Below are positions 1,053 through 35,318 of a stretch of DNA of 64,000 bases, piece after piece (within the stretch, counting starts at the first letter, position 1; each line of letters opens with the position of its first letter). The notes under the pieces are model-generated. The model saw only the letters and a program-made list of their open reading frames with translations, did no database searches and was not told the DNA's origin. The translations under genes and the position numbers were made by a program. Origin of the DNA: Betaproteobacteria bacterium (GTDB taxonomy: Bacteria > Pseudomonadota > Gammaproteobacteria > Burkholderiales > WYBJ01); assembly GCA_009377585.1 (NCBI GenBank), contig WHTS01000022.1:1-64000 (forward strand), written 5' to 3'.

Positions 1053-4000
1053 ATGAGAACGCGAAACGGATCGGTCGAGATCCTGGTGGCCGAAGACAGT
1101 GCGACGCAGGCACAGCAGCTGCAGACGCTGCTCGAGGAGCACGGATTCAAGGTCGTCGTCGCGCCCGACGGAGAGGCGGCACTGGCGCGCATACGCGAGC
1201 GTGCGCCCACGATCGTCCTCAGCGACGTGATGATGCCGACTCTCACCGGCTACGAGCTCTGCAAGGCGATCAAGTCCGACGAGCGCCTGAAGCACATCCC
1301 GGTCATTCTCGTCACCTCGCTCGCCGATTCGAGCGACGTGATCCGCGGCTTGGAGTGCGGCGCGGACAACTTCGTGCGCAAGCCCTACGACGAGAAGTAC
1401 CTGTTGTCGCGCATCGCTCATCTGCTCATGAACCTCGATCTGCGCAGGAGCCAGCGCATGCAGATGGCGCTGGAGGTCGAGCTGGGCGGCAGGCGACACA
1501 TCATCACGGCCGAGCGCCAACAGATCCTCGACCTCCTGATCTCGACCTACGAGCAGGCCGTGAGCGTAAACGCCGCACTCACGCAGCGCGAGGCAGAGCT
1601 CGATCGCTCGAACTGGGTCCTGCGCGGACTCAACCGCATTGCCGAGGGCCTGAACGGCGCCGTGAGCGAGGTTGATGTGGTAAGCGCGGCGCTCAAAGGC
1701 GCGCTCGAGCTCCCCGGCGTGGAAGCGGGCTGGATGATTCTGGCCGCCGGAGAGGGCGAGTTTCGCCTTGCGGGCGGACGTGGTCTGCCGCCGGCGCTGA
1801 GCGGGCCAGGCGCCTTCGACGGGGAATGCGCTTGCCGGCGCAAGCTGCTCGCGGGAGAGCTGGATGGTGCGGTCAACGTCATCGCGTGTGAACACCTGGC
1901 TGCGGCCACGCGCGACAGCGGTGGCCTGCGCTGCCACGCGAGCGTGCCGTTGTGGCTCGGCAAAGGCCGTTGTCTTGGTCTGATAAATCTCGCGGGGCTG
2001 GGTGAGAAGCCGTTCAGCATGGACGAACTGGCGGTACTCCACGGTGTCGGCAACCAGGTCGCGGTCGCGCTCGAGCGCGCGCGCCTGCACGAGCATCTGG
2101 AACAATTGGTGCAGGAGCGCACGGCGAAGCTCTCCGCCGAGATCGAGCAGCGAAAACGCATCGAGCAGGAGCAGGAACAGCTCGCCGGCATCATCGCGGC
2201 CACCCCCGCTCTGGTGGCGATCGCTGCCCCCGACGGCCGCATGCGCTACTGCAACCCGGCGGGGTTGCGCATGCTCGGTTATGCGCCCGACCAGGATCCC
2301 GGCGGCATGAGCATCGCCGCGTCGCATCCCGCGTGGGCGGCGAAGCGTCTCTCCGAAGAGGCTATCCCGTACGCCATCGAACGCGGGTCCTGGAGCGGGG
2401 AAAGCGCGCTGCTTACTTGTGACGGGCGCGAGATCCCGGTGCTGCAGGCGATCGTCGCGCGGTGGAAGGCCGACGGAACGCTGCGCTCGCTGTCGATTGT
2501 CGGCCACGACATCAGCCAGCAGAAGGAAGCGGAGACCGCACTGCGGCGGCTCAACGAAGAGCTGGAGCAGCGCGTCACGCAGCGCACCGCCGATCTGGAG
2601 CAGGCGCGCCGCGACGCCGAGCAGGCTGATCGGGCCAAGTCCGCGTTTCTTGCCACGATGAGCCACGAGATCCGCACGCCGATGAACGGCGTCGTCGGCA
2701 TGGCCGAGATTCTGAACTACGAGCGCCTGACCGAGCGCCAGGCCGATATCGTGCGGACGATCCGCGATTCGGCCACTGCGCTGCTCCGCATCATCGACGA
2801 CATCCTGGACTTCTCCAAGATCGAGGCCGGCCGCCTGGAAATCGAGCGCGTCAAGGTACCCCTGGTCGACCTGGTCGAGGGGATCTGCGCCTCGTTCCTG
2901 CCCATCGCCGCGCGCCATGACGCCGACTTCGCGCTTTTCATCTCGCCCAGCATCCCCGAGCGCGTGCTCTCGGACGAGGTGCGCCTGCGCCAGGTGCTCT
3001 ACAACCTCCTGGGCAATGCCTTCAAGTTCTCGGGCGGCCGCCCGCAGGTGCGCGGTCGCGTGTCGCTGCGCGTGGAGGTCGTGACCCAGTCGCCGCTGCG
3101 AATCGACTTCCGCATCGCCGACAACGGCATCGGCATGTCGAGCGAGCTGGTGGCGATTCTGTTCACCCCGTTCACCCAGGGTGAGCTGTCGACCACGCGT
3201 CGTTTCGGCGGCACGGGGCTCGGGCTTGCAATCTGCAGGCGCCTGGTGAGCCTCATGCACGGCGACATCGCGGTGCAGAGCGCGCCCGACGCCGGATCGG
3301 CATTCACCGTGACGCTGCCATTCGATACCCCGGCCGAACAGCCGCTGCGGCCGAAACCCGATCTTTCCGGTCTGGAGTGTCTGCTTCTGGAAAGCCCGGA
3401 GCTCGACGCGCACGACCTCGCGGTTTACCTGGAAGACGCGGGCGCCCGCGCGCGCATCCTGACCGACGCCTCGGCCGTCATGCAGGCCACGGAGGAAATT
3501 GCCGCGCCCGTGGTCGTGATCCAGTATGTCGAACGCGGCAGCGAGCCCAGTGCCGCCGCGCGCCAGGGCTTGCCGATCGCTTCCAACGCGAGCCACGTGT
3601 TGCTCAGGCGCGGACAACGCCAGCGCTGCCGCGTCGAAGCGCTCGATGTGGTCACCCTGGATCGCGACGCGCTGCGCCGGGATGCCTTCCTGCGCGCCGT
3701 CGCCATTGCGGCCCGTCGTGCCCTGCCCGACGCCGAACAGCCTCCGGCCGACGAGCGCGCGGCCGACGGCATCGAGTCGGCACCGCCCAGCATTGCCGAA
3801 GCGCGCGCGCAAGGGCGGCTCATTCTGGTGGCGGAGGACGACCTGGTCAACCAGAAAGTGATCCTGCAGCAGCTCGCGCTGCTCGGTTATGCAGCCGAGA
3901 CGGTCGGCACCGGCGTCGAGGCGCTGCGGTTGTGGCGCAAAGGCGGCTACGCCCTGCTGCTCACCGATCTGCATATGCCCGATATGGACGGCTTCACGCT

Positions 4001-4574
4001 GGCCGAGACTATACGGCGAGAGGAGCTCGGGCGCGTACGCCTGCCGATCATCGCGCTCACCGCCAACGCCTTGCGCGGTGAAGCAAATCGAGCGATGGCG
4101 CTCGGTATCGACGAGTATCTGACCAAGCCGGTCCTGCTGCGGGTGCTGCGCGCGGCCTTGCGCCGGCGGCTCGTCCCGCAAGCGGCGACTCGCCTCGGGC
4201 CCGATGCCAGCGCTCGCAGCGACGGCAGCGAGCCCGCGCCAGCGCTGGACGTCGCGGTATTGGAGGGTCTGGTGGGAGACGACAGGGACGTGGTACGGGG
4301 ATTTCTCAGCGAGTATGTCGCAGGCGCGCGGGACCAGATGGACGGCCTGCGCGCGGCTGCCGCGGCCGGGGATGCGCCGCAGGCCGCCGCCATCGCGCAC
4401 AAATTGAAGTCGTCCTCCCGCTCGGTCGGGGCGCTTGCGCTCGGGGACCTGTGCGCCGAGCTCGAAAGCGCGGGCAAGGCCGGGGACAAGGCGCAGGTCA
4501 TGCAGATCCTGTCCCAGCTCGGAGCCATGTTTGCGCAGGTCGAGGACGCGATCGCCCGCGAGCTGCTCGATTGA
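1053..4574 (+). CDS. Large hybrid sensor histidine kinase (REC-GAF-PAS-HisKA-HATPase-REC-REC-Hpt)
   Basis: A cytoplasmic phosphorelay kinase of 1173 residues. An N-terminal receiver (acceptor Asp near residue 58 in VLSDVMMP) is followed by a GAF-like domain (about 205-345), a coiled coil and a PAS domain (about 375-490). The HisKA box [11 protein letters not shown] lies near 537 and the HATPase domain has its N box and GTGLGLAI box. Next come a degenerate receiver without a clear acceptor, a complete receiver (LLTDLHMPDMDG) and a C-terminal Hpt domain with AHKLKSSSRSVGA near 1115. No membrane segment is seen, so input probably comes through the N-terminal receiver or the GAF/PAS domains. It follows cheB by 140 bases and precedes the receiver-EAL gene by 23. 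Likely partners are the receivers encoded just downstream. Confidence 0.95.
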   Translation: MRTRNGSVEILVAEDSATQAQQLQTLLEEHGFKVVVAPDGEAALARIRERAPTIVLSDVMMPTLTGYELCKAIKSDERLKHIPVILVTSLADSSDVIRGLECGADNFVRKPYDEKYLLSRIAHLLMNLDLRRSQRMQMALEVELGGRRHIITAERQQILDLLISTYEQAVSVNAALTQREAELDRSNWVLRGLNRIAEGLNGAVSEVDVVSAALKGALELPGVEAGWMILAAGEGEFRLAGGRGLPPALSGPGAFDGECACRRKLLAGELDGAVNVIACEHLAAATRDSGGLRCHASVPLWLGKGRCLGLINLAGLGEKPFSMDELAVLHGVGNQVAVALERARLHEHLEQLVQERTAKLSAEIEQRKRIEQEQEQLAGIIAATPALVAIAAPDGRMRYCNPAGLRMLGYAPDQDPGGMSIAASHPAWAAKRLSEEAIPYAIERGSWSGESALLTCDGREIPVLQAIVARWKADGTLRSLSIVGHDISQQKEAETALRRLNEELEQRVTQRTADLEQARRDAEQADRAKSAFLATMSHEIRTPMNGVVGMAEILNYERLTERQADIVRTIRDSATALLRIIDDILDFSKIEAGRLEIERVKVPLVDLVEGICASFLPIAARHDADFALFISPSIPERVLSDEVRLRQVLYNLLGNAFKFSGGRPQVRGRVSLRVEVVTQSPLRIDFRIADNGIGMSSELVAILFTPFTQGELSTTRRFGGTGLGLAICRRLVSLMHGDIAVQSAPDAGSAFTVTLPFDTPAEQPLRPKPDLSGLECLLLESPELDAHDLAVYLEDAGARARILTDASAVMQATEEIAAPVVVIQYVERGSEPSAAARQGLPIASNASHVLLRRGQRQRCRVEALDVVTLDRDALRRDAFLRAVAIAARRALPDAEQPPADERAADGIESAPPSIAEARAQGRLILVAEDDLVNQKVILQQLALLGYAAETVGTGVEALRLWRKGGYALLLTDLHMPDMDGFTLAETIRREELGRVRLPIIALTANALRGEANRAMALGIDEYLTKPVLLRVLRAALRRRLVPQAATRLGPDASARSDGSEPAPALDVAVLEGLVGDDRDVVRGFLSEYVAGARDQMDGLRAAAAAGDAPQAAAIAHKLKSSSRSVGALALGDLCAELESAGKAGDKAQVMQILSQLGAMFAQVEDAIARELLD

Positions 4575-8278: not shown

Positions 8279-8366
8279 TATCGAGCGTTCCCTATTTCAT
8301 GTCACGCTCGTCCCTCACCCCCAACCCCTCTCCCGGGGGGAGAGGGGAGCGTCGCGTCCGTATTGG
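8279..8366 (+). repeat. 88-bp palindromic repeat, copy 1
   Basis: This 88-base block recurs without a mismatch, in inverted orientation, at 12950-13037. Its core is a near-perfect palindrome: CCCCTCTCCC (8325-8334) pairs with GGGAGAGGGG (8338-8347) around a 3-base loop. The flanks differ on both sides of the two copies, so the edges are sharp. It resembles REP/MITE-like elements common in GC-rich proteobacteria. It lies at the 3' edge of an adhesin remnant. Confidence 0.9.
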
Positions 8367-11168: not shown

Positions 11169-11953
11169 CTACGAGCCGCTCAGGCGCATCTTCAGCTTCG
11201 CCACGACTTCCGAGTGTATTTGCGAGACCCGGGATTCGCTGACACCCAGGTCGCCGCCGATGGTGCGGAGGGTGCGATGCTCATCGTAGATCGACTCCAT
11301 GACGTAGCGCTCCACCGCCTCCAACGTGTCGAACGCCGCCGAAAGTATCGCGTGACGCTGCCGTTGTTGCAGGGCACGCAACGGGTCGTGAAAATGTCCG
11401 CTCGTCAGATTTTCGTCTTCTCGCACGCACCCATAGTACGGTGGATCTTCGGGGTCCTCGAGCTCGTCATCCGCCGACCGTTTGCTACCAGCACCGGCTT
11501 CGACCATGCAGGCATGAAATCTATCCATGGCCATCCAAGCTCATTCGCGACTTCCTTGGCGCGCGGCGCCCTCCCGAGCCGATGCTCGAGTCGCTTGACT
11601 GCCGCACCGATTTCGCGAACAGACGAGCGTGCTTGGCGTGAAAGCGCGTCGTCCGAGCGGAGTGAATCGAGCATTGCACCTTCGATCCGTCTGGCCGCGT
11701 AACACTCGAAAGTCGATCCGGTTCGCTCTTCGAACCGGGTGAGGGCATCGTTCAGGCCGATCATGCCCGCCTGAATCAATTCATTCCGATGGACGTTCGC
11801 GGTCAGGCGGGCGCGGAGCCTACCGGCGATCTTTTTCACAAGCGGCAAATAGGTTGCAATCTCCGCACTGCGGTTGCATCGCTGCTTTGCATATTCCATA
11901 GGAGGCTTACTCTCCTCTGCGATCTCTCGCTGGGCACACGATCCTTCGATCAT
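11169..11953 (-). pseudogene. fliA: FliA-like sigma factor, frameshifted
   Basis: The first part (11953 to about 11536) encodes sigma region 2 and the start of region 3: YLPLVKKIAGRLRARL, ELIQAGMIGLNDAL, ARRIEGAMLDSLR and GRAPRAKEVANELG. The rest (from about 11534 to 11169) continues in another frame with DPLRALQQRQRHAIL, region 4 (VERYVMESIYDEHRTL) and the helix-turn-helix GVSESRVSQIHSEVV. Reading GGAATGG in place of GGATGG near 11531-11536 would join both into one normal-length sigma-28 family protein of about 260 residues. So it is either a recent one-base deletion or a sequencing error. No flagellar genes are nearby. Confidence 0.85.
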
Positions 11954-12522: not shown

Positions 12523-12824
12523 TCACCCGCCCATCCCTCGTAGCTGTTGTTCGAAAGCAGACAGCTCGGCTGGCTGATAGCGACTCATATACCGCCACTC
12601 GGCGAACGCTTTCAGCAATGAACAAGCGTCGGGACCGAGCGATAGCAGCTCCATCTCCGTCATTCGTCCCTCACGGGTAACTACCGCGATGCAAGCCTTC
12701 TTCATCGCTTGGGCTTCGTAGCTTCCCGGATCAGTCGCCGGGCGATCGAGGATAGTCCGATCGGATCCTCCTCCGGGTTGGCGGCGACTTCGGCCAGCAA
12801 GCGGGCAAGAAGGAGCCTGGGCAC
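12523..12824 (-). pseudogene. Broken second copy of the 105-residue small protein (family gamma)
   Basis: Reading starts at GTG 12824, after GAGGGA, and gives PRLLLARLLAEVAANPEED down to EATKPKR and a stop. The homologous sequence continues one frame over with MKKACIAVVTREGRMTEMEL, SLGPDACSLLKAF and FEQQLRGMGG. It matches the intact gene at 13485-13802 (KKACIAVIARAGRMTEMEL, ALGPDASALLGTF, FERQLRRIGG). One frameshift near 12705 separates the halves. It lies 11 bases after the broken copy of its partner gene, in the same order as the intact pair. Confidence 0.75.
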
Positions 12825-12835
12825 GACAGATCCCT

Positions 12836-13089
12836 CTACATTTCGTCCGTATCCGGATGCTCCCCCCGCACCGTGGCTTGAAGCCGCATCCAGCTCACGT
12901 AACCTGTGACGGGTGCGCCATTATTGATCGTTCCGTATTGGACGACAGCCCAATACGGACGCGACGCTCCCCTCTCCCCCCGGGAGAGGGGTTGGGGGTG
13001 AGGGACGAGCGTGACATGAAATAGGGAACGCTCGATAGCTCCCGCTCCAGCATGTTGGCGATGACTCGGATTCGGGTGGATCGCTTCAT
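12836..13089 (-). pseudogene. Second copy of the family beta gene, interrupted by the 88-bp repeat
   Basis: The first 18 codons read MKRSTRIRVIANMLEREL, matching MKRSALIREIADMLEREL of the intact gene at 13802-14143. Homology stops exactly where the 88-bp repeat begins (13037). Beyond the repeat the sequence resumes in another frame with GYVSWMRLQATVRGEHPDTDE, matching GYVHWVRLQALVREEHQDTDE. About 60 codons of the middle are missing. The element thus replaced, rather than simply entered, the centre of the gene. Confidence 0.8.
12950..13037 (-). repeat. 88-bp palindromic repeat, copy 2 (inverted)
   Basis: Identical over 88 bases to the reverse complement of 8279-8366. Here it sits inside the broken family beta gene, with one edge exactly at the point where homology to the intact paralogue ends. 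Just outside the other edge, TCCGTATTGG (12932-12941) is an inverted copy of the repeat's own end CCAATACGGA (12950-12959). That points to a partial second element or a rearrangement at this site. Confidence 0.9.
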
Positions 13090-13484
13090 AGCAATGCAGC
13101 GCAATCGTACGATAGGCGCTCATAATGCTGGGAAGCGAATACAATGACATCCGGCATTCCCTTACGAGATAACCGAACGGCTCTAACACAACGTTTCTAC
13201 GGCGTGCTTCCGCTCGGGCACGCTTGCTACGCGGCAAGGAGTTGGGTTTCTACGTGAGACGAGCGCTCGATCAACGGGGCGGTAAAGTGGTTCCCAGGAT
13301 TCATAGCACAACCTCGCAGTTCAGGCGAGCCCAGTATCACCCTGATCGAGCCGACCCGAAATCGGAACAAGCCAACAATCTGCGTCCGGAATTTCCCTAC
13401 AACTTCTCTCACATAAATCCGCCGCGTTTGCGTTTAGCCCCTTGGATCACGACAAGTCGCTCGTCGCGATACCCGCTCAGCACA
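13090..13484 (-). other. Intergenic stretch between the two small-gene pairs
   Basis: No gene can be supported. On the minus strand there are two short sequences that resemble the block upstream of the intact gene pair: GTAGGGAAATTCCGGAC (13384-13400) and GTAAGGGAATGCCGGATG (13148-13165), against GTAGGGAAATCCCCGAC at 14183-14199. They may be conserved promoter or operator sequence carried along by the duplication. A 61-codon open frame (13227-13412, minus) has no convincing features. Confidence 0.4.
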
Positions 13485-13802
13485 TCAGCCGCCGATTCGC
13501 CGTAGCTGTCGTTCGAAAGCAAACAGCTCGGCCAGTGAATAGCGGCCCGCATTGCGGCACTCCACGAACGTCCCCAAGAGTGCGCTCGCATCTGGTCCCA
13601 ACGCCAAGAGCTCCATTTCAGTCATTCGCCCCGCACGAGCGATTACGGCGATACACGCCTTCTTCAGTGTCCGGGCCTCGCAAGAGGCGAGATCCTTCCC
13701 GACGCGCTCGAGGATGGGTTGCGTCACATCGGCATATGTTCGCGCGGATTTCTCTGCCTTGGCAGCGGCAGCCGCGAGAAATCGGTCAAGCGTGAGACGC
13801 AT
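13485..13802 (-). CDS. Small orphan protein, family gamma (intact)
   Basis: A 105-residue, largely helical protein starting MRLTLDRFLAAAAAKAEKSA and ending FERQLRRIGG, with no signal peptide or membrane segment. Its start codon overlaps the stop of the family beta gene by one base (TGATG), so the two are probably made in a fixed ratio. A frameshifted second copy exists at 12523-12824. Both members of the pair were duplicated together, which suggests they work as a unit. A toxin-antitoxin or other two-component role is possible, but no motif supports a specific function. Confidence 0.7.
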   Translation of the reverse strand: MRLTLDRFLAAAAAKAEKSARTYADVTQPILERVGKDLASCEARTLKKACIAVIARAGRMTEMELLALGPDASALLGTFVECRNAGRYSLAELFAFERQLRRIGG

Positions 13803-14143
13803 CAGGCTTGCACCTCGTCGGTGTCCTGGTGCTCTTCTCGTACCAGGGCTTGAAGCCGAACCCAGTGTACGTATCCCATCATCACCTCGAAGAGAGCATC
13901 CGGTCCATCGGGATATTTGCTCTCGACCTGGCCGCTGTAATAGACAGCCGCACGTTCCGCGAGGACTGTCACCTGATGGAAGGCGTACTCATCCACGCCG
14001 TTGAGCTTTTCCTTCAGGTACCGAAGGCGATCGAGAAGCGTGGCATTCGCGACGGGAAGCGGATTTCCCTTGAGTTCCCGCTCCAACATATCGGCGATTT
14101 CCCGGATTAGAGCTGACCGCTTCATGTCCGATGCGCCAGGCAT
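13802..14143 (-). CDS. Small orphan protein, family beta (intact), first gene of a coupled pair
   Basis: The 113-residue product begins MPGASDMKRSALIREIADML; the paralogue suggests the internal Met at 14125 could be the true start. A helical N-terminus is followed by EYAFHQVTVLAERAAVYYSG and GYVHWVRLQALVREEH. No known domain is recognised. Its stop overlaps the start of the family gamma gene. A second copy at 12836-13089 is destroyed by the 88-bp repeat. The block at 14183-14199 just upstream is repeated near the broken copy and may be a shared promoter element. Confidence 0.7.
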   Translation of the reverse strand: MPGASDMKRSALIREIADMLERELKGNPLPVANATLLDRLRYLKEKLNGVDEYAFHQVTVLAERAAVYYSGQVESKYPDGPDALFEVMMGYVHWVRLQALVREEHQDTDEVQA

Positions 14144-14514
14144 GCGTCAGCTCGATTATTCCCCGTCAGCGGGAGAAATGATGTCGGGGATTTCCCTACA
14201 CGCGCCCGTAAGGGGGCCAGTGAAGTGCCGATGTGCCGTTGGCATGCGCGCCTCGCTTAACTTCAAGGACGGCCTACTCAGATCGAGAGCAACGCAAGCG
14301 CCAACCATCCCGCGCCGAGCCACCAGCGTAGCCGTGGCGAAGCACAGCAAAGCATATAGCCGGCCCAATTACACCGTTGTTCACCTGCTGCCGCCCGTTC
14401 ACGATCGCTGGCGAGGATCCTCGTTCCGGCGAAGCGTCACAACGGCGCACGCACGATAGCGCTAATGAAGGCCAACCTTTATCCAGGCGATCGCCAATGG
14501 ATCGTAGACGTATC
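14144..14514. other. Intergenic stretch upstream of the small-gene pair
   Basis: No gene is supported. It contains the GTAGGGAAAT-type block (14183-14199, minus) that may serve the coupled pair. A 70-codon minus-strand frame (14156-14368) starts with a hydrophobic run but has no other support. Confidence 0.4.
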
Positions 14515-25675: not shown

Positions 25676-26044
25676 TCAATGCTCCTCGGGCAGCACATGC
25701 TGCGGCACTTCAGGTGCGCGCGTCTTCCTGACTTGCGTTGCTCCTTCTAGCCCGATCGGAAGCACACCCTGCAGGTGTTGAAGCCGCTGCAACGCCGACC
25801 CAAACACGTCGACGGCCTCTTGAATCAATGACGGCGACTGGCGCTGTGCGGAGCGATCGATTGCACCGTCCAGTACGCACACGCGGTGCGAAATGTCCGG
25901 CATTCCCCGTATCGGCAATCGCTTGACCTCGGCGGAAAGCAGGCATTGCTCGGAATCGTAGTATTCGAGCGTCTCGACATACGCCGTGAGCAAAAAGGAA
26001 ACCACGTGCTCCGTGTCCGCGGTACTGATCGCTTCGATGATCAT
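25676..26044 (-). CDS. Small orphan protein, family delta, copy 1
   Basis: A 122-residue protein starting MIIEAISTADTEHVVSFLLT. The shared core is EHVVxFLLxAYVETLE, CLL, VKRLPI and DIS. It is clearly paralogous to the gene at 34763-35146, and the similarity continues upstream of the start (GTCCTCATTTGTGCG and AAGTTCGAATG near 26076-26115). The C-terminus differs between copies and is rich in polar residues here. No known domain is recognised. Helical N-terminus, no membrane segment. Confidence 0.65.
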   Translation of the reverse strand: MIIEAISTADTEHVVSFLLTAYVETLEYYDSEQCLLSAEVKRLPIRGMPDISHRVCVLDGAIDRSAQRQSPSLIQEAVDVFGSALQRLQHLQGVLPIGLEGATQVRKTRAPEVPQHVLPEEH

Positions 26045-26295
26045 CAAACTCTTTCCCTCCGTTCGCGTGACAACGAGTCCTCATTTGTGCGACGGAAAAG
26101 CGAGAAGTTCGAATGGCACGCAAAAATTCCAGAGGCAATGGCGACGGCGCAGAGCCGAACTGCCAGGCAGACAGGAACGGCATGTTGTCGCCGCAATGGC
26201 GCTCCGGCCGTGGCGTGGTCCTCCCGTTTCAGCGTACCGTCACAAATGGAGGATATAACGCACGCACGAGACGCAGGTTGGACGGGAGGATCTTC

Positions 26296-34593: not shown

Positions 34594-34785
34594 TTGCACG
34601 ATCTTAGACAAATGAACGAGGAGCGGCTTGCGCACCACGCGGCGACATGGCAGCCGGGTACTTGGCACCGTGCGATAGCCAATGAAGAATTGAGAAGAAG
34701 GCACGCGCGCCCGCGGTTCGCCGTGCCGTGGGCCGCAATCGCAGCTTGCGCCGTCGGCCTGATCATCGCTGTGGCGGCGATTTAA
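34594..34785 (+). CDS. Small tail-anchored membrane protein
   Basis: TTG 34594 or ATG 34612 could start it (63 or 57 residues). A helical, charged N-terminus (MNEERLAHHAATWQPGTWHR) leads to one C-terminal membrane helix (WAAIAACAVGLIIAVAAI) at the very end of the protein. The last 23 bases overlap the end of the opposing family delta gene. Function unknown. Confidence 0.45.
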   Translation: MHDLRQMNEERLAHHAATWQPGTWHRAIANEELRRRHARPRFAVPWAAIAACAVGLIIAVAAI

Positions 34786-35146
34786 CCCTTTGCTTCTGGG
34801 CGCTTGTCTCGGCGACACCACGTGACCTGATCCGCAATTCAGTGCCGTGTGCGAACTGGCGCACTCCGATCAAGTGTTCGAGGCGCTGCAGCGTCGCTAC
34901 AAAAATATCGCCGACTTCTTCGACGAATGATCGCGATTGGCCATGTGAGCATTCATTGATCGCACCGGCAAGTAGGCCCGCACGTTGAGAAATGTCTGCC
35001 ACTCCCGCTATCGGCAATCGCTTGACCCCGGCGGGCAACAAACATTCTGGGGTATCGGAATGCTCGAGAGTCTCCACATACGCCGCGAGCAAGAAATAAA
35101 CAACGTGCTCGGTTTCTGCCGTTCGGATCGCTTCGGTTATCTTCAA
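34763..35146 (-). CDS. Small orphan protein, family delta, copy 2
   Basis: The 127-residue product starts MKITEAIRTAETEHVVYFLL, then AAYVETLEHSDTPECLLPAG and VKRLPIAGVADISQRAGLL. It matches the gene at 25676-26044 along most of its length, including blocks upstream of the start (GTCCTCATTGGTGCG, AAGTTCGAATG near 35177-35215). Both copies are intact. The C-terminal 30 residues diverge and are basic here. Function unknown; two intact copies with conserved upstream sequence suggest shared regulation. Confidence 0.68.
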   Translation of the reverse strand: MKITEAIRTAETEHVVYFLLAAYVETLEHSDTPECLLPAGVKRLPIAGVADISQRAGLLAGAINECSHGQSRSFVEEVGDIFVATLQRLEHLIGVRQFAHGTELRIRSRGVAETSAQKQRVKSPPQR

Positions 35147-35318
35147 TATTCGCCCCTTTCGAGTCTAGCGTCTGTCGGTCCTCATTGGTGCGGCGCCGAC
35201 GTGATAAGTTCGAATGTCGCCTGCATTCTTAAAGTCATTTCTGGGAATGCCGGAGTCGGAACAACAGAGCCCCCGACGGCGCACGCCATCGCTCGACCAT
35301 TTTTTGCGGATGCTGCGT

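Follow-up and report, generated by a model that had tools for sequence, protein, structure and literature searches.

A small overlapping gene pair joins two unnamed protein families in a Burkholderiales draft genome

The minus-strand genes gamma and beta form a cassette that joins two small-protein families, both unnamed, of which one is phage-borne and the other Burkholderiales-wide, and in this cassette the two genes overlap and are under selection. We tentatively favor, at somewhat below even confidence, a model whereby the cassette is an accessory operon in which two genes, drawn from mobile or accessory families unrelated to each other, encode small, soluble and helical proteins that would be co-translated and would probably act together, perhaps in phage exclusion. 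The pair lies in the window, by which we mean the whole stretch of 64,000 nucleotides analysed (positions 1-64000 of contig C22 of genome G000, which has 6.76 Mb in 242 contigs, 99.4% completeness and 4.85% contamination).

The intact pair, its copies and its surroundings

Gamma, the first gene of the pair (13802-14125, minus strand), encodes an all-helical protein of 107 aa, and beta, the second (13485-13802, minus strand), a mostly helical protein of 105 aa. One base is common to both genes and lies within a TGATG stop/start overlap (13800-13804, running 13804-13800 on the minus strand), so that the coupled pair of the preliminary description stands as overlap geometry. The gamma ORF can be extended to an ATG at 14143; the preferred start is the ATG at 14125, which is the same Met at which the phage relatives of gamma begin (MK.S), and the start at 14143 is not conserved, being replaced by TTG in the copy on contig C141. 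The assignments draw on the ORFs, on AlphaFold (AF2) models, on purifying selection (for gamma, against the C141 copy) and on relatives (for gamma, the start of those in prophages); because the relatives lie in the same frames and both genes are under purifying selection, we take gamma and beta as real genes.

The C141 copy, which was absent from the preliminary description, is a third pair and intact (G000:C141:13103-13758). It keeps the same TGATG, is 89% identical to the window copy in gamma and 85% in beta at the amino acid level, and its similarity to the window copy ends just beyond the beta stop codon. Between the two copies, 32 base differences in gamma cause 12 amino acid changes, where 22.1 +- 2.3 were expected from 5000 shuffles of the base differences without stops and none of the 5000 was as low; in beta, 37 base differences cause 16 changes (expected 24.2 +- 2.5, P 0.0014). 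Jointly this amounts to 28 changes against 46.5 expected (0/5000 shuffles), and the dN/dS ratio comes to 0.24-0.28 in gamma and 0.37 in beta. Both genes have thus been under purifying selection since the window/C141 duplication. A PHROGs search found no recognisable phage gene among the C141 neighbours, although gamma's relatives do sit in prophages and phages. Two further genes of C141 (locus L020) lie about 4 kb away from its intact pair: one belongs to the TIGR04255 family (3159-3896, 2.1e-36), and the other matches PDC-M32A weakly in PADLOC (3893-4387).

A broken pair, gamma'/beta', lies downstream of the intact pair at 12523-13089, in the same gene order and on the minus strand. Gamma' survives as an N-terminal remnant (13028-13089, minus strand; MKRSTRIRVIANMLERELSS) that keeps residues 1-~20 and is 53% identical to gamma over 30 aa, and as a C-terminal remnant (12836-12904, minus strand; GYVSWMRLQATVRGEHPDTDEM followed by a stop) that corresponds to residues 84-105 and is 73% identical over 22 aa. 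In place of residues ~21-83 stands a dispersed hairpin repeat of ~117 bp (about 12921-13038, minus strand; fold z -3.8), which looks like a REP/MITE-type element: about 40 other places in G000 are listed for it, it also occurs in the window around 8310-8334, and its 25-bp core is found at 116 genomic places at <=2 mismatches (control 0). The beta' pseudogene (12523-12821, minus strand) is frameshifted, with its N-terminal third in one frame (12818-12714) and the remainder in another (12753-12526), the latter 62% identical to beta over residues 30-105. The TGATG overlap is absent from the broken pair, and, as read from these frames, both of its genes are dead. In blastn of the intact against the broken pair, beta matches at E 2e-24 and the two gamma ends at 1e-7 and 5e-7, a likeness that by these scores is beyond chance. 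Blastn and the frame analysis thus confirm the broken second pair in the same order that had been described, and duplication as a unit holds at least twice, in the tandem copy and in the C141 copy.

The palindrome GTAGGGAAATCCCCGAC lies 58-74 bp upstream of the gamma ATG (14183-14199) and is a candidate operator, with a second copy, GTAGGGAAATTCCGGAC, in the stretch that separates beta from the broken pair (13384-13400). These are the only two matches of the pattern TAGGGAAATNCCNGAC in the window, with 0.17 expected at <=2 mismatches. Across G000 the pattern has ten strand matches versus 0 in the control, among them a pair of neighbouring sites that lie upstream of a response-regulator-like gene on C125, and one site on C62; at <=1 mismatch it has five sites plus one intragenic site (control 0). 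Because the pattern was derived from the sites themselves, we regard both copies as leads only and an operator upstream of gamma as possible. A genus-wide palindrome regulon was not supported, the inspected matches in G001 and G003 falling inside ORFs. A sigma-70 promoter scan around the locus found none, and Rfam gave no gathering-level matches in the window. Elsewhere in the window, a sigma-factor-like gene (11169-11953, minus strand) appears split over the overlapping frames 11405-11953 and 11169-11534 and is perhaps a frameshifted pseudogene, and two paralogous small ORFs (34766-35164 and 25679-26080, both minus strand; 58% identity over 99 aa; no Pfam match above cut-off) are possibly the family alpha of the preliminary description.

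Two families with separate distributions

Relatives of gamma are few and 27-33% identical to it. The first, Carl1_28 of Burkholderia phage Carl1 (ON642070.1; annotated as a hypothetical protein), matches gamma at 3e-3 by tblastn in the phage collection and at 8e-11 by pairwise BLASTP (24/79 identical, the 79 covering most of 101-107 aa), and the two have in common an MK.S..IREIA start, YS, a P.G.D motif and similar length. From this similarity over most of its length, gamma is judged to belong with the Carl1_28 phage-cargo family. Carl1_28 sits between the genes for tail-fibre assembly G and sheath FI, adjoins a DNA methylase gene and lies on the strand opposite its neighbours; a gene 96% identical to it occupies the same genomic place in a near-identical prophage on IMG/VR contig L046. 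A third relative, recovered in G203 (7.6e-10) with a profile of gamma and Carl1_28, lies in a lambdoid prophage beside cro and a gene for a CI-like repressor, in the orientation opposite to that of cro (roles read from translations), and this prophage gene is also present in IMG/VR (L050). In the fetched DNA around the relatives in Carl1, L046 and the G203 prophage, no beta gene was found. In a sample of 399 genomes from the order, gamma was present in two (G000 and G203), and in one of 369 from the class (G000). A related-locus search with gamma among genome contigs returned none, and searches with gamma and with beta returned none in viral contigs and none in plasmids.

Beta has a different distribution. 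G003 carries two apparently intact copies (C19, C21) without gamma, and profile-profile comparison (hhalign) aligns beta with the wider Burkholderiales family A4 at a probability of 97% and E 5.6e-11, a value to be read with caution because the A4 seeds had initially been picked up by the beta profile. Common to beta and its A4-type relatives is a helical core of ~90 aa at 14-25% identity to beta, and by this shared core beta is assigned to a superfamily of small helical Burkholderiales proteins. Among named genomes, a scan recovered 12 loci (L051-L062, for example JAURHM010000011.1), all MAGs titled Betaproteobacteria or Burkholderiales, with two of the 12 titled Bordetella parapertussis; profile A2 recovers most of these genes at 1e-5 to 1e-2. 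Directly upstream of the beta-like gene, 11 of the 12 loci have a gene for a protein of ~89 aa that resembles a membrane protein with two helices (it is absent at L061), separated from it by a gap of 3-22 bp, most commonly 6 bp, or overlapping it by 8-11 bp. In an A4-type copy on C73 of G000, these two genes overlap as TGATG. The profile of the ~89-aa protein has no match in the window or on C141, and gamma occupies that place. Since the upstream gene encodes a membrane protein in most loci and gamma here, the beta family is habitually a tightly spaced second gene, with a partner that varies by lineage. Downstream of the pair, several loci among L051-L056 and L061 have a conserved gene of ~114 aa without a Pfam match, which by eye looks like a GIY-YIG domain gene. 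Weak beta-profile matches inside long frames (L032, L033, L035-L037) were set aside as chance.

Neither gamma, beta nor their relatives belong to a family in Pfam, NCBIfam, PHROGs or PADLOC; PDB sequence profiles gave no match for gamma or beta, and no PADLOC model of a known anti-phage defence system matched. AF2 models are confident for both proteins (pLDDT 88.4 for gamma, a helical bundle, and 92.6 for beta). Foldseek against the PDB found nothing at E<=0.001 (best 3.4 for beta and 0.48 for gamma), and against viral models it found nothing significant for gamma. The top VIA-align 2 scores were Z 5.0 for beta, against 6rqj (75 aligned at rmsd 3.2), and Z 10.6 for gamma, against 4llc (104 aligned at rmsd 3.0); among helical bundles such scores may reflect only a common arrangement. 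The two proteins are not mutual paralogs (hhalign probability 0.1%). In agreement with the preliminary description, neither shows a known motif in any library searched, and the profile searches and structure prediction proposed there yielded no family and confident helical models without an informative match.

Possible roles of the cassette

In the model that we tentatively favor, gamma would derive from a rare family whose other members are carried singly, as cargo, by temperate phages of Burkholderiales, and beta from a family of Burkholderiales whose gene usually comes second, behind that of another small protein. Beta would have become the coupled second gene of gamma in this lineage, and the cassette would then have been copied as a unit, giving the tandem and C141 copies, one copy having decayed. 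Ribosomes ending gamma may restart on beta at the TGATG, which would give a fixed ratio of the two products. Because of the overlap and the joint duplication it is plausible that gamma and beta act jointly, probably as a complex or on the same target. Gamma's role could be to interfere with incoming phages or to confer some other lysogenic-conversion trait, phage exclusion being the most economical guess because of where its relatives lie. Small genes may be coupled without their products interacting. Against the model, we count the lack of any functional sequence or fold match, with PADLOC and PHROGs blank, the small number and low identity (27-33%) of gamma's relatives, and that the gamma-beta pair is known from one draft genome only (4.85% contamination), so that the case for a working partnership depends on three copies within one lineage.

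A possible but rather doubtful alternative is an accessory operon unconnected with phages that serves host stress or housekeeping, in which beta would act as adaptor to any small first-gene protein coupled to it, mostly the membrane protein and here gamma. The beta relatives of Burkholderiales MAGs are chromosomal, lie mostly downstream of the ~89-aa membrane-protein gene and in some cases precede the small GIY-YIG-like gene, all of which agrees with this, as does the use of TGATG by the C73 copy in the same genome; however, it leaves unexplained that the only other relatives of gamma are phage cargo. That gamma and beta are selfish or passing genes without joint function, two orphans joined by chance and now decaying, we consider unlikely: one of the three pairs is dead, as are two further beta copies in G000 (frameshifted on C156; truncated and beside a transposase on C217), but purifying selection has acted on both genes since the window/C141 duplication, and the TGATG has been kept.

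Going beyond the favored operon model, and as something of a long shot, we speculate that beta is a modular, conserved cytosolic "second gene" coupled behind interchangeable small first genes, a membrane protein in most Burkholderiales and a phage-derived helical protein here, such that the first gene would set the input or target and beta would be the common partner, possibly in a phage-exclusion or membrane-stress system. If the first-gene partner of beta is indeed interchangeable, the cassette would be a tractable case of coupled small-protein operons rebuilt by recombination and would offer the first testable function for both families; at present it is an uncharacterised accessory operon.

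The preliminary description had suggested that the pair works as a toxin-antitoxin or small immunity system. Co-occurrence across genomes, proposed there as a check, showed beta without gamma in G003 and at A4-type loci and gamma without beta in Carl1, L046 and the G203 prophage; as each family is thus found alone, an obligate two-protein unit is not borne out. A type II toxin-antitoxin system, with gamma as antitoxin and beta as toxin or the reverse, autoregulated via the upstream palindrome, is improbable. In its favor are the two small overlapping genes, the palindrome upstream of gamma, the duplication as a unit and the loss of both genes in one copy; against it, no toxin or antitoxin family and no informative fold was matched, and it would need a toxin lacking its antitoxin in G003 (intact beta) or in the phages (intact gamma), barring an unrecognised alternative antitoxin. 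Gamma and beta may yet be a small immunity system, because gamma's relatives are phage cargo.

Comparison with known systems

Like type II toxin-antitoxin operons, gamma and beta are two small overlapping genes with a palindrome upstream; unlike them, they match no toxin or antitoxin family in Pfam, NCBIfam, PADLOC or PDB sequences, their fold matches are uninformative, and each gene also occurs alone. The beta-superfamily loci (L051-L062) resemble the window pair in the helical core and in the tightly spaced second gene, with TGATG in one case, whereas their first gene encodes a membrane protein rather than gamma and identity to beta is low. Carl1_28 can be aligned along most of gamma and is similar in size, but it is a single gene without beta, carried as phage cargo between G and FI. 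The exclusion genes old and tin of P2 are likewise accessory genes in P2-like prophages, where a hotspot lies between gpA and gpQ (PMC9122126). One gamma relative, Carl1_28, is an accessory gene in a P2-like phage too, but it has no known sequence relation to old and tin and lies between G and FI rather than between gpA and gpQ.
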